From: a candidate division KSB1 bacterium
Lineage (GTDB): Bacteria; Zhuqueibacterota; JdFR-76; DREG01
Assembly: GCA_022566355.1 (NCBI GenBank)
Contig: JADFJB010000040.1
Coordinates: forward strand, 1 to 35,028
Direction of reading: 5' to 3'
Length of the DNA stretch: 35,028 nt
A program made the position numbers and the translations under genes. The notes under the pieces are model-generated. The model searched no databases. It was given only the letters and a program-made list of their open reading frames with translations, and was not told the DNA's origin. Numbering within the stretch: the stretch's first letter is position 1; every line of letters starts with the position of its first letter. Of this stretch, positions 1-4,082 are shown piece after piece.

Positions 1-139
1 AAGAAATACGAACAAAGAAGACTGACAACGAGCCTTATCTGGCTTTAGAGTTGGGACTTCCGACCGGGAGGATATCCGCAACCATTTGGCAGGAAGTGGA
101 AGAGCAAAATGAAATTTACGATATGGTGATATTGTTAAA
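1..139 (+). pseudogene. Partial duplicate of the YhaM-like HD nuclease gene (codons about 24-70)
   Basis: Bases 1-139 repeat bases 2389-2528 of the intact HD-nuclease gene almost perfectly: I see a substitution at 104, a substitution at 120 and one missing T near 125. Identity stops abruptly after the shared GTTAAA near 139. The fragment codes for the end of the OB-fold and lacks the HD domain. The missing base shifts the frame and a TGA follows at 140, so this copy cannot make the nuclease. It begins at the window edge, so a start codon and promoter may lie upstream. It forms a direct repeat with the complete gene on either side of a three-gene leftward cassette. Confidence 0.85.
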
Positions 140-319
140 TGAATATTGTAAACTATTGTTAATAAAATACTTATAGTAATTTTCTAATAGTAAAAGTAAC
201 GTATTTGTAACGTTTTTGCTTGATTTTTAGGATTTCATTAAGATTAATCTTACTTAGGTTAGAGCATAACGGCGCGCCACTGTAGCCGGTTGATCCGCAG
301 TTGAGAGTTTTAATGGAGC

Positions 320-784
320 TCAGGTTTTTAATTTCAATATAGCTTCACTTGCCAATTGTAATGCAATCAGCTTTTGTTCGGATTTTTCTTGAGGCCAACC
401 AACGATATTTGCATGTCTGGAGGGAGTGTCGTCGGGATCTAATTCCAAATTAACCTCTTTTACGGCTAATAAAATAATTTGTCCCCTTCCATATAGGGTT
501 CTCGGTGCTGGAAGTTTTTTAACAACTTCTTCATAGCCTAATTTCCAAATTTCATCTTCTGTGAGTCCTTGTGTCCTAAAAACAGACAAGCAAAAATCGG
601 GGGCCGGCATAAAGGCTGCGTCTTTTACTCTTTTATTTTCAATACTAAAATGCCTTTTGCTCATGAGATAACGTCCCAAAGGTTCGGTATCCTCAATTTC
701 CTTTAAAGGGGTAATATCTGTTTCAGGGTACTCTTTATGCAAAAACTCTTTGAATGTTGTCCAAAATCGTTTTAGGTAATTCAT
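320..784 (-). CDS. Conserved hypothetical protein, third gene of the TIGR04255-linked cassette
   Basis: A protein of about 154 residues with no recognisable enzyme motif, signal peptide or membrane segment. Conserved-looking blocks are EPLGRYLMSKRHFS near the N-terminus, then AAFMP, SVFRTQGL, YGRGQI and SRHANIVGWP near the C-terminus. I recall similar small proteins in patchily distributed bacterial gene clusters, without a known function. The start is uncertain: ATG 784 overlaps the upstream gene by 50 bases; ATG 835 is preceded by AAGGAG but would overlap by about 100 bases; ATG 664 would cut into the conserved block. It is co-directional with the two genes upstream and probably co-transcribed. 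Function unknown. Confidence 0.7.
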   Translation of the reverse strand: MNYLKRFWTTFKEFLHKEYPETDITPLKEIEDTEPLGRYLMSKRHFSIENKRVKDAAFMPAPDFCLSVFRTQGLTEDEIWKLGYEEVVKKLPAPRTLYGRGQIILLAVKEVNLELDPDDTPSRHANIVGWPQEKSEQKLIALQLASEAILKLKT

Positions 785-1226
785 TCCCAAAATATTCTGT
801 CCCGTGTGTTTTATTATACCCAAAAAGTCCTGCATAAGTTAGTTCTCCTTTTCTCCCTATACTCACCGAAAATACTCTGCGTTTAGTGTGATACCATCCT
901 AATGCGATTTCACCATCAGGCTCTACTGTTATTTGTGGGACCGGTATAGTTTTTGGCAAAAAATGGATGAAACGCAATGTTTCTTTGTAAGAAGCCATAT
1001 CAATGGCCTGCGCTCCATATCCATCCCAATTATCAGATGAACATTCTTTCATAATCTCATTTATGGTTTGGATAATTTCTTTTGACCATCCGAAAACTAT
1101 ACTATTATCCTCAATTATCCCAGCAAAACGCTCTTTCAAAGTAGAGGCATCTTCGCTCACGCCTCTGTCCCCATATGGATTAAATATTGGGTTGTAATCT
1201 TTCATTGGTAAACATAAAGTGCTCAT
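735..1226 (-). CDS. Conserved hypothetical protein, middle gene of the TIGR04255-linked cassette
   Basis: A soluble protein of 163 residues. Visible blocks are SSDNWDGYGAQAI, then PQITVEPDGEIALGWY, then FSVSIGRKGELTYAGLFG, ending in a hydrophilic tail. The alternating short strands in the second half suggest a small beta-sheet fold. The start ATG at 1226 overlaps the stop of the upstream TIGR04255-type gene in an ATGA arrangement, which supports this start and translational coupling. Its 3' end overlaps the next cassette gene. I recognise the family only as a recurring neighbour of TIGR04255 proteins in patchy accessory loci. No biochemical role is known to me and none is assigned. Confidence 0.75.
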   Translation of the reverse strand: MSTLCLPMKDYNPIFNPYGDRGVSEDASTLKERFAGIIEDNSIVFGWSKEIIQTINEIMKECSSDNWDGYGAQAIDMASYKETLRFIHFLPKTIPVPQITVEPDGEIALGWYHTKRRVFSVSIGRKGELTYAGLFGYNKTHGTEYFGNELPKTILDNIQRVFA

Positions 1227-1969
1227 TCAAATAACCTCGCTGCTTTTTCTGTGATACTACTAAAAAAAATCCTATTTTTCATATCACGAAGTTTTTCAAA
1301 GATGTACCAGATTTCTTTATTGTCTATGGGAAAGTCTCCTTGTTTAAATACATCAATATCCAAAATTATTGTAACAGAATTGGGTTGAGGAACACTCTCA
1401 AAACTATGTGTAATATTTGCAGTAATCTCTTGGGTAGGATCATAAATTGTCACCCTATTCAAAAAACTCATAACAGCCTGTGGTAGTTCTTCGGGAATAT
1501 TAGGGGCAGATATTAAGTATTCAGAAAAATCATGAATGGGTAACGGAATATTTAACTGATTAATATAACGCACAGCTAATCGTGTAACAGCTTCAGGTTT
1601 GGCAAATTTCATATATAGAGGCCACAATTCTTGAGCTTCTTTACGAATATCCACCCAGTCTGAATAAGGTCTCAAACGGTTGAAGGTAAAACCATCAATT
1701 CTAAATTGAACGACTTGTTTTTTATCATTTGTTTTTAATAAAAATCCTTGTATGCCTAAGTTCTCGATTTGTAGGTCAATTGGCTTTCCATTTTTAATTT
1801 CATGATGCCCTCTCAATAAAGATTGCTCCTCAACTATAGGGTAGTTATTAGAAAGCTTCTCCTTCAAAGGAATAAATTCTTTGGTTTGAAATGAGTCTGG
1901 AAGTTTTGTTCGAATATCTATCAATGCTTCTGTTATAGGAGCATTGTTTAAATGTCGTTGTTGAGCCAT
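1223..1969 (-). CDS. TIGR04255 family protein (sporadically distributed, function unknown)
   Basis: A 248-residue soluble protein. The N-terminus (LNNAPITEALIDIRTKLP) and later blocks (GFLLKTNDKKQVVQFRIDGF, then AVTRLAVRYINQLNIPL, and a C-terminal stretch ending in ITEKAARLFE) match my memory of TIGR04255, a family defined by scattered occurrence and a length near 250. No nuclease, kinase or DNA-binding motif is visible. It is the first gene of a leftward unit of three, joined to the next by a 4-base ATGA overlap. Only a weak AAAGA lies before the ATG. Its position between direct repeats of a host gene suggests acquisition by transfer. Family membership is from memory of sequence style. Confidence 0.75.
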   Translation of the reverse strand: MAQQRHLNNAPITEALIDIRTKLPDSFQTKEFIPLKEKLSNNYPIVEEQSLLRGHHEIKNGKPIDLQIENLGIQGFLLKTNDKKQVVQFRIDGFTFNRLRPYSDWVDIRKEAQELWPLYMKFAKPEAVTRLAVRYINQLNIPLPIHDFSEYLISAPNIPEELPQAVMSFLNRVTIYDPTQEITANITHSFESVPQPNSVTIILDIDVFKQGDFPIDNKEIWYIFEKLRDMKNRIFFSSITEKAARLFE

Positions 1970-2318
1970 AATATCTTTAAGTTTACTATACGTAAAAGAA
2001 ACATAACAAGTTTTTTTAATTATTACAATAGCCGATCATATTTTGAACGACACAAACCTTATATTAATCACTATTATAATAGTTCGGATATATTTTCATA
2101 AATATACATAAGGAAAAGTCCTCAATATAATGGCTCTTATTTCCATTAGGTTTGCATACAGATTATTCATTTCGTAATTTTACCAACTCTGTAAAATATG
2201 ACAGTTGAGAACATCATCAAAAAATCAAGGAATGATTTGTTGAAATTAATCCCAAAATAATGTATACATAAAATTAAATAGTTAAGCTAAATATTCAATT
2301 AAACGAATTGGGGGAACG
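1970..2318. other. Divergent intergenic region between cassette and HD nuclease
   Basis: Very AT-rich spacer of about 350 bases between the leftward cassette and the rightward nuclease gene. It must hold both promoters, but no -35/-10 pair is convincing; a TATAAT lies at 2075-2080 without a good partner. GGGGG at 2310-2314 precedes the nuclease ATG and is the likely ribosome site. No RNA gene or clear inverted repeat was seen. Confidence 0.5.
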
Positions 2319-3287
2319 ATGTTATCACGATCAATAAAACAATTAAAACCCGGGGAAAAAATTACTGAATTTTTTATTATTCGCAAGAAAGAAATACGAA
2401 CAAAGAAGACTGACAACGAGCCTTATCTGGCTTTAGAGTTGGGACTTCCGACCGGGAGGATATCCGCAACCATTTGGCAGGAAGTGGAAGAACAAAATGA
2501 AATTTACCATATTGGTGATATTGTTAAAATTAAAGGACGTATTATCGATTATAAAGGGAAAACTTCACTTGTCATCGAAAAAATGAAGGCACTGTGCGAT
2601 GAAGACCATTTAATACCAGCCGACTTTTTACCGGGTCCAAAAAAAGAGTTGGATCAATTAAGAGGAGAGTTCAACAAGATCATTCAATCAATCCGCAATA
2701 AATATTTGGAGGAATTGTTGACTCGAATGTTTTCAGAAAAGGATACCCGTCATTTGTTTGAGCAGATTCCGGCAGGCAAATTGTGGCACCATAACCGTTT
2801 AGCAGGACTTTTTGAACATACAATATCGATGGTTCAAATTTGTGATTTTCTTTCATCTCACTACCCAACTATCAACCGTGACATAATCATAACGGCTACT
2901 ATTTTGCATGACATAGGAAAAATAAAGAGTTACGCAATAGATCGGGGCTTCATTGAATACACCGATGAAGGAAGGCTAGTTGGCCATGTAGCCCTCGGCG
3001 CTTCCTCGGTTGAGCGGATAATCGCAGATATCCCGGAATTTCCGGGCGAATTACGCAAGCAAATCCTGCATTTAATATTAAGCCATCATGGTGAGCTTGC
3101 ACATGGTGCACCTGTCGTACCAATGACACTTGAAGCCATCGTTCTGTATATGGTAGATCAACTCGATTCAAAAGTAGATGCCTTTTTGCGTATCGCAGAA
3201 AGCGAACAAGAAGAGGGGAAAAAGTGGAGCAATTATGTTAAGTTGATGGATCGGTTTTTTTATTTTCCGGATTCTGATAAACAGTAA
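2319..3287 (+). CDS. YhaM-like 3'-5' exoribonuclease: OB-fold plus HD domain
   Basis: A 322-residue protein, the usual length of the YhaM family. An OB-fold nucleic-acid-binding domain occupies about residues 12-92, followed by a linker and an HD metal-dependent phosphohydrolase domain at about 155-290. The HD ligands are visible: H167 in GLFEHT, H197-D198 in ILHDIGKIKSY, H223 in GHVALG, the HH pair at 256-257 and D280/D283 in YMVDQLDSK. This OB-HD order is typical of Firmicute YhaM, which trims RNA and single-stranded DNA ends. No signal peptide, so cytoplasmic. The start follows a GGGGG ribosome site. A fragment of the same gene lies at 1-139 beyond the upstream cassette. A broken Nudix gene follows 14 bases downstream. 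Confidence 0.88.
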   Translation: MLSRSIKQLKPGEKITEFFIIRKKEIRTKKTDNEPYLALELGLPTGRISATIWQEVEEQNEIYHIGDIVKIKGRIIDYKGKTSLVIEKMKALCDEDHLIPADFLPGPKKELDQLRGEFNKIIQSIRNKYLEELLTRMFSEKDTRHLFEQIPAGKLWHHNRLAGLFEHTISMVQICDFLSSHYPTINRDIIITATILHDIGKIKSYAIDRGFIEYTDEGRLVGHVALGASSVERIIADIPEFPGELRKQILHLILSHHGELAHGAPVVPMTLEAIVLYMVDQLDSKVDAFLRIAESEQEEGKKWSNYVKLMDRFFYFPDSDKQ

Positions 3288-3812: not shown

Positions 3813-3900
3813 TTTGTGCCTTTGTGCCTTTGTGCCTTTGTGCCTTTGTGCCTTTGTGCCTTTGTTACTTTGTCACTCTGTGTCTTTGTGTCTCTGTGGT
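3813..3900. repeat. Tandem octamer repeat TTTGTGCC, 11 units
   Basis: Six perfect copies of TTTGTGCC run from 3813 to 3860, then five diverged octamers (such as TTTGTCAC and TTTGTGTC) keep the same 8-base phase to about 3900. Two overlapping open frames across it encode only low-complexity Leu/Cys/Val repeats and are not genes. A shorter array of the same unit lies at 31072-31103. Confidence 0.9.
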
Positions 3901-3965
3901 TTTCTCCGTTTGCCCCATTCTCCTATTCCCCGTTTCATGTTTTTCCGTCTGCCGCCTGCCCTGAA

Positions 3966-4001
3966 CCTTTCGACCTTGCTCAAGATAAACTCCGTCGAAG
4001 G
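3966..4001. repeat. Imperfect inverted repeat CCTTTCGAC / GTCGAAGG
   Basis: The arms CCTTTCGAC (3966-3974) and GTCGAAGG (3994-4001) pair with one bulged base around a 19-base loop. It resembles dispersed palindromes with CTTCGAC/GTCGAAG arms that I recall from other environmental bacterial genomes. It sits between two tandem arrays in the same spacer. Confidence 0.6.
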
Positions 4002-4040
4002 GTGCCTTTGTCACTCTGTCACTTTGCTACTTTTTCCTAG

Positions 4041-4082
4041 TCTCTAGCCTCTAGCCTCTAGCCTCTATCCTCTAGCCTCTAC
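4041..4082. repeat. Tandem heptamer repeat CCTCTAG, six units
   Basis: Six 7-base units run from 4041 to 4082: TCTCTAG, CCTCTAG twice, CCTCTAT, CCTCTAG and CCTCTAC, preceded by CTTTTTCCTAG at 4030-4040. The last four units plus CTCA recur exactly at 31113-31144, where only four units are present, so copy number differs between the loci. Confidence 0.9.

Follow-up and report, generated by a model that had tools for sequence, protein, structure and literature searches.

A TIGR04255 protein heads a conserved three-gene operon that probably forms a tripartite toxin–antitoxin-like module with exchangeable partners

The 35,028-nucleotide stretch of DNA analysed here (the window), from a candidate division KSB1 bacterium, carries a three-gene operon headed by a TIGR04255 protein; with two protein families so far undescribed, it most likely encodes a toxin system of three parts. 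The operon is conserved and patchily spread, it sits in a local insertion, and at other loci its last slot is held by recognised toxins. Our comparative analysis makes it probable that we are dealing with a horizontally moving tripartite module, in which gene 3 would act as the toxin, gene 2 as its antitoxin and the TIGR04255 protein as a shared third part that silences the pair. The genes are laid out as follows:

1223–1969, minus strand: gene 1, TIGR04255 family protein of 248 amino acids (NCBIfam match), the proposed shared third component
735–1226, minus strand: gene 2, antitoxin-like protein of 163 amino acids from the 'WDGYGA...PDGEI..W' family, with homologues in the same slot
320–742, minus strand: gene 3, toxin-like protein of 140 amino acids from the TTG at 740–742, the start favoured over an upstream ATG
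320–835 as called, minus strand: alternative form of gene 3, 171 amino acids from the ATG at 833–835

All three open reading frames lie on the minus strand where the preliminary description had placed them, and its assignment of gene 1 to TIGR04255 holds over the full length of the NCBIfam model (E 1.3e-40; 139.9 bits against a cut-off of 30; positions 2–252 of 252 covered). The ATGA overlap that it reported between genes 1 and 2 is likewise real and is conserved among loci with the window's own partner families (type I, below): the start of gene 2 falls at −4 nt relative to the end of gene 1 in 39 of 62 such loci and at −1 in 7 further. The deeper overlap described for genes 2 and 3 depends on the start codon assumed for gene 3. 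The ATG at 833–835 exists and would give a 101-nt overlap, whereas an in-frame TTG at 740–742 reduces the overlap to 8 nt. Since many gene 3 homologues start at, or shortly past, the gene 2 stop, and since the first ~20 residues even of the 140-residue form make up a low-confidence part of the predicted structure ahead of the conserved domain, the short form is the more likely one. An AAGGAG precedes the ATG, and the same bases code for conserved gene 2 residues (K-G-E-L-T-Y-A-G). The early assumption that a deep overlap is a meaningful feature was dropped. The window pair is laid out like a type II toxin–antitoxin (TA) system: both genes are small, they adjoin and overlap, and they are mobile and occur patchily.

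Neither gene 2 nor gene 3 of the window matches Pfam or NCBIfam, gene 2 has no PHROG match, and sequence comparison with solved structures gave no convincing relative for gene 1, 2 or 3. The gene 2 family comprises 67 proteins, a homologue filling the same slot at most related loci, and is acidic (median pI 4.98); the type I gene 3 family is basic (median pI 9.22). The pairing of an acidic with a basic protein is the pattern of many TA pairs. Gene 3 of the window departs from most of its family in being acidic (pI 5.7). The AlphaFold2 model of gene 3 (pLDDT 94, pTM 0.83) has no fold match in the PDB or BFVD, and no catalytic motif was recognised in the protein; two residues, S53 and H110 in the numbering of the 140-residue form, are invariant in an alignment of 43 sequences.

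When 84,980 species genomes were searched with a TIGR04255 profile, 204 relatives came up, from which 80 loci were read together with 8 viral contigs; the TIGR04255 alignments worked for finding loci, unlike gene 2, which as a lone probe returned nothing in genome contigs or plasmids. Of the distinct TIGR04255 genes, 98 have 1.2 kb or more of sequence downstream; the window's gene 2 or gene 3 family follows 67 of them, and both families follow 64; the order TIGR04255, gene 2, gene 3 is kept across many phyla. As this sample is biased to relatives of the window's gene 1, we also searched in reverse, starting from gene 3. In the phylum of a Nitrospira locus (L046), 13 of 198 genomes carry gene 3. 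Among the 12 near-complete matches there, 11 have gene 2 and TIGR04255 upstream in order and the 12th is severed by a contig end, so that all 11 testable matches have both partners; the remaining matches are partial or decayed. In the window's phylum gene 3 is found in 2 of 82 genomes, both times inside the operon. The proposed co-occurrence of the three families in fixed order is thus borne out, and so is their patchy spread, with TIGR04255 present in 8 of 82, 30 of 347 and 59 of 343 genomes of three phyla (roughly 9 to 17%).

Gene 2 also occurs apart from TIGR04255. In the window's phylum it is found at 7 places, 3 of them without TIGR04255, and a gene-3-like protein comes next in 2 of these 3. 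Gene-2/gene-3-like pairs without TIGR04255 stand at L112, where a TIR protein and a HigBA-like pair adjoin, and at L113. Such pairs are expected if the pair is a TA unit and TIGR04255 an add-on. The genome of the window itself carries a second complete TIGR04255 operon (L007, G000:C2:114714-115463), in which both gene 2 (E 2e-6 to the window's) and gene 3 have diverged. At G000:C7:55998-56093 (L008), a decayed TIGR04255 remnant with an in-frame TGA is followed by antitoxin-like and HEPN-like open reading frames; this is a broken copy of another partner type.

At other loci TIGR04255 is followed by other proteins. Over 158 distinct TIGR04255 loci the downstream pairs are distributed as follows:

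Type I, the window's gene 2 and gene 3 families: 81 of 158
Type II, a 97-residue or HTH protein and an 'RQGD...QSCD' protein: 22 of 158
Type III, a 148-residue protein and DUF7689 (E 1.1e-43): 12 of 158
Type IV, a HEAT-like protein and a 172-residue protein: 2 of 158
PIN protein in the last slot: 7 of 158 (Pfam E 5.8e-19 to 7.7e-8)
HicB-like protein and HicA: 5 of 158 (HicA Pfam E 3e-5)
Unnamed protein and HEPN: 4 of 158 (HEPN Pfam E 0.0014)
PemK/MazF in the last slot: 3 of 158 (Pfam E 5.8e-19, 2.2e-13 and, weakly, 0.006)
No type assigned: 22 of 158, on inspection mostly type II-like

A toxin-type protein (PIN, PemK/MazF, HicA or HEPN) therefore ends the operon at 19 of the 158 loci, mostly in the same overlapping three-gene layout, and the same partner profiles gave zero matches in 320 kb taken from these genomes as 20 control regions. 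Two further phyla (347 and 343 genomes) were sampled with the TIGR04255 family model rather than through likeness to the window; here a recognised toxin family lies downstream at 15 of 51 readable loci, and these samples include the PIN and PemK/MazF proteins of the last slot. Mapping partner type on the TIGR04255 tree requires at least 11 changes, where the minimum is 5 and shuffling gives 28.6; hence the pairs are mostly inherited with TIGR04255 and sometimes exchanged.

Type I gene 3 matches its own divergent forms weakly, over most of the length in the best pairs, and shows no convincing link to the last genes of types II, III or IV. DUF7689 proteins of the type III slot (L035, L074, L099 and others) share conserved 'YNCIAWA' and 'HAARQL' motifs, which, at the level of sequence, suggests a Cys-His enzyme. 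As to the middle slot, a candidate N-terminal docking motif of gene 2, 'G[VFT]S.[DE][AS]..[LIV]', at first seemed significant in types II and III, with a seed picked post hoc and with related group members; over held-out loci of all partner types its combined p is 0.13, and a shared gene 2 docking motif is kept solely as a lead. The HTH-bearing gene 2 proteins of L188, L190, L221, L226 and L238 have an N-terminal hydrophobic stretch followed by G-T-S-x-A, and the partner of the PIN protein at L229 has a similar stretch; the C-terminus of the latter resembles VapB-type antitoxins. In both kinds of partner the stretch could be a chaperone-dependent tail.

The TIGR04255 protein of the window is confidently modelled by AlphaFold2 (pLDDT 95.3, pTM 0.89) as two units, each roughly beta-alpha-beta4-alpha, a topology like that of TATA-binding proteins (TBP). 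TBPs are also its top fold matches in the PDB (probability up to 0.99, E 1.4e-3), with a TM-score of at most 0.40, below the fold-level threshold of 0.5, and an rmsd of about 11 Å. The models thus suggest a likeness in topology only, that is, in the order of secondary-structure elements. SecB is absent among the 50 PDB fold matches listed, and gene 1 has no Pfam match to SecB.

The immediate surroundings of the operon point to an insertion. The relevant features are:

140–2200: insert of 2.06 kb carrying the operon, absent at the matching place in a relative (G002)
1–139, plus strand: 3' part of the left direct-repeat copy, equal to 2389–2528 at ~98% identity
Contig C81, 22011–22208, at the contig end: 5' part of the left direct-repeat copy
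2201–2528, plus strand: right direct-repeat copy, continuing into the intact YhaM-like gene
2319–3287, plus strand: intact YhaM-like exoribonuclease gene with OB-fold and HD domain, the host gene adjoining the insert

The repeat is a 328-bp block that consists of the last 60 bases of an acylase gene, the intergenic DNA and the first 70 codons of the YhaM-like gene (PRK13480 at E 5e-55, below that model's cut-off; HD and OB domains in Pfam), and it stands at ~98% identity on both sides of the 2.06-kb insert, the junction of C81 with the window's contig (C40) being itself inferred from a ~10-nt overlap. In the relative, the acylase gene and yhaM are direct neighbours, and the site is empty. Because the block is duplicated and this site is empty, we regard the 2.06 kb as an insertion with a long direct repeat. 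The preliminary description had spoken of insertion beside a duplicated host gene; the insertion and a duplicated piece are there, whereas duplication of the entire gene had to be dropped, as only the acylase end, the intergenic DNA and the first 70 YhaM codons are repeated. A single crossover with a circle bearing the 328-bp block would leave such a repeat. An intergenic block of ~109 bp (window 145–253) recurs once elsewhere, 78% identical, at G000:C92:14586-14693 (L003), and is possibly a small mobile or terminator-like repeat. Farther along the window, two overlapping low-complexity open reading frames with CLCAFVPL repeats (3814–4047), an unusual run of simple repeats, lie immediately upstream of an enolase gene.

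No clear enrichment beside known defence genes was seen: by PADLOC, the flanks of 18 loci resemble 20 control regions of the same genomes, in a small comparison of 140 flank with 140 control proteins. Raw family counts (143 in flanks, 39 in controls) are inflated by a few proteins that each match many models. A TIGR04255 locus on a Thermus plasmid has argonaute, VapC and Cas6 nearby and one on a Crinalium plasmid has restriction genes; together with L112 these are single suggestive cases. Phage and prophage contigs (L102–L109) carry TIGR04255 operons as well, several of them among head, connector and lysis genes: at L105 the module lies between terminase and portal, and at L106–L108 it lies beside head, connector, endolysin or Zot-like genes.

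We read gene 3 as a toxin and gene 2 as an antitoxin because, in operons of the same layout, recognised toxins stand last and antitoxin-like proteins stand in the middle; the TA resemblance that had been pointed out earlier is strengthened by TIGR04255 heading operons that end in known toxins. We infer that gene 3, a candidate toxin of an undescribed family, would be neutralised by gene 2, and that TIGR04255, as a chaperone or sensor, would hold the pair in check. The simplest way to do so would be to bind the antitoxin and stabilise it, which is what SecB-like chaperones do in TAC systems. If TIGR04255 or gene 2 were lost, or captured by, say, a product of a phage, gene 3 would be set free; a phage trigger and a role in phage defence are likewise putative. 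Several points speak against the tripartite TA-like reading: genes 2 and 3 of this type resemble no known antitoxin or toxin, the fold search with gene 3 gave no match, the window's copy of gene 3 is acidic, TIGR04255 is not SecB-like, the docking motif failed, and the flanks lack a clear enrichment in defence genes.

Other readings give the same genes different parts. TIGR04255 might act as a transcriptional autoregulator that stands apart from a two-part TA pair and binds operon DNA through its TBP-like fold, much as omega serves epsilon-zeta and PaaR serves PaaA-ParE. It is always the first gene, its best structural lead, if a weak one, is the TBP-like topology, and several gene 2 types have no recognisable DNA-binding domain; the family, however, is acidic (median pI 5.69), upstream inverted repeats are only marginally longer than in shuffles (7.15 vs 6.66), and some partner pairs already hold an HTH protein in the second slot, all of which leaves this reading unlikely. 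Rather improbable, too, is that the three proteins work jointly, without killing the host, as an accessory complex borne by phages and islands, with superinfection exclusion or counter-defence as possible roles. The module's place among structural genes, as between terminase and portal at L105, and the want of a recognised catalytic motif in gene 3 would suit it, yet known TA toxins occupy the same slot at 19 loci, and toxins are likewise common phage cargo. That TIGR04255 is itself the effector or sensor-effector, with the two downstream genes as its regulators, strikes us as very improbable: it is the sole constant part of all the operons, but classical TA toxins, complete and in need of no further effector, are among its partners, gene-2/gene-3-like pairs also occur in its absence, and neither Pfam nor the PDB fold search reveals a recognisable catalytic motif or enzyme fold.

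Under the preferred tripartite TA-like reading, the nearest counterparts are the TAC systems, in which a SecB-like chaperone family pairs with HigBA, HicAB or MqsRA and protects the antitoxin (PMC5105189); in the anti-phage system CmdTAC, a phage capsid protein pulls the chaperone off and frees the toxin (PMC11618068). Like these systems, M. tuberculosis HigBA1-SecB-TA included, TIGR04255 operons combine three genes, a constant third protein and unrelated TA families. They differ in that the third protein is TIGR04255, SecB-like neither by sequence nor by its best fold matches, in that it has more partner types, and in that the window's toxin and antitoxin families are new; the recognised TA family that marks TAC is found in 19 of 158 TIGR04255 operons and not in genes 2 and 3 of the window. 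Since TIGR04255 is not SecB-like, the comparison concerns a working mode and not membership or homology. Panacea is a hyperpromiscuous antitoxin domain combined with many unrelated toxins (PMC10440598), and so again one constant module; it lies within the antitoxin, whereas TIGR04255 has a third gene of its own, beside an antitoxin that varies too. HipBST is a tripartite TA operon of three proteins (PMC10627512). It differs in its HipA-type kinase toxin, in its other proteins and in being a single family. It is not known to exchange partners. The NCBIfam entry for TIGR04255, of which gene 1 is a member, is for a sporadically distributed family of undescribed role, and the model is silent on operon partners or function.

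The name TIGR04255 had no match in 5.39 million open-access papers, nor in two papers on TA systems, and no description of the tripartite operon was found in the open literature searched. In its broadest form, which we put forward tentatively and find somewhat harder to believe than not, TIGR04255 may be a hyperpromiscuous third component, its two-repeat TBP-like fold being unrelated to SecB, and may lend a shared layer of sensing or control to at least 8 unrelated TA pairs across bacteria and phages, with both the toxin of the window (possibly a new fold and activity around the invariant Ser and His) and its antitoxin undescribed. The link to recognised toxins gives TIGR04255, an annotated family without an assigned role, a testable function, and it adds a second kind of third component beside SecB to tripartite TA biology. 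At least three undescribed effector families are indicated, namely type I gene 3, the type II 'RQGD..QSCD' protein and DUF7689. Should TIGR04255 prove to sense phage, it would serve as a general trigger module, exchangeable between toxins.
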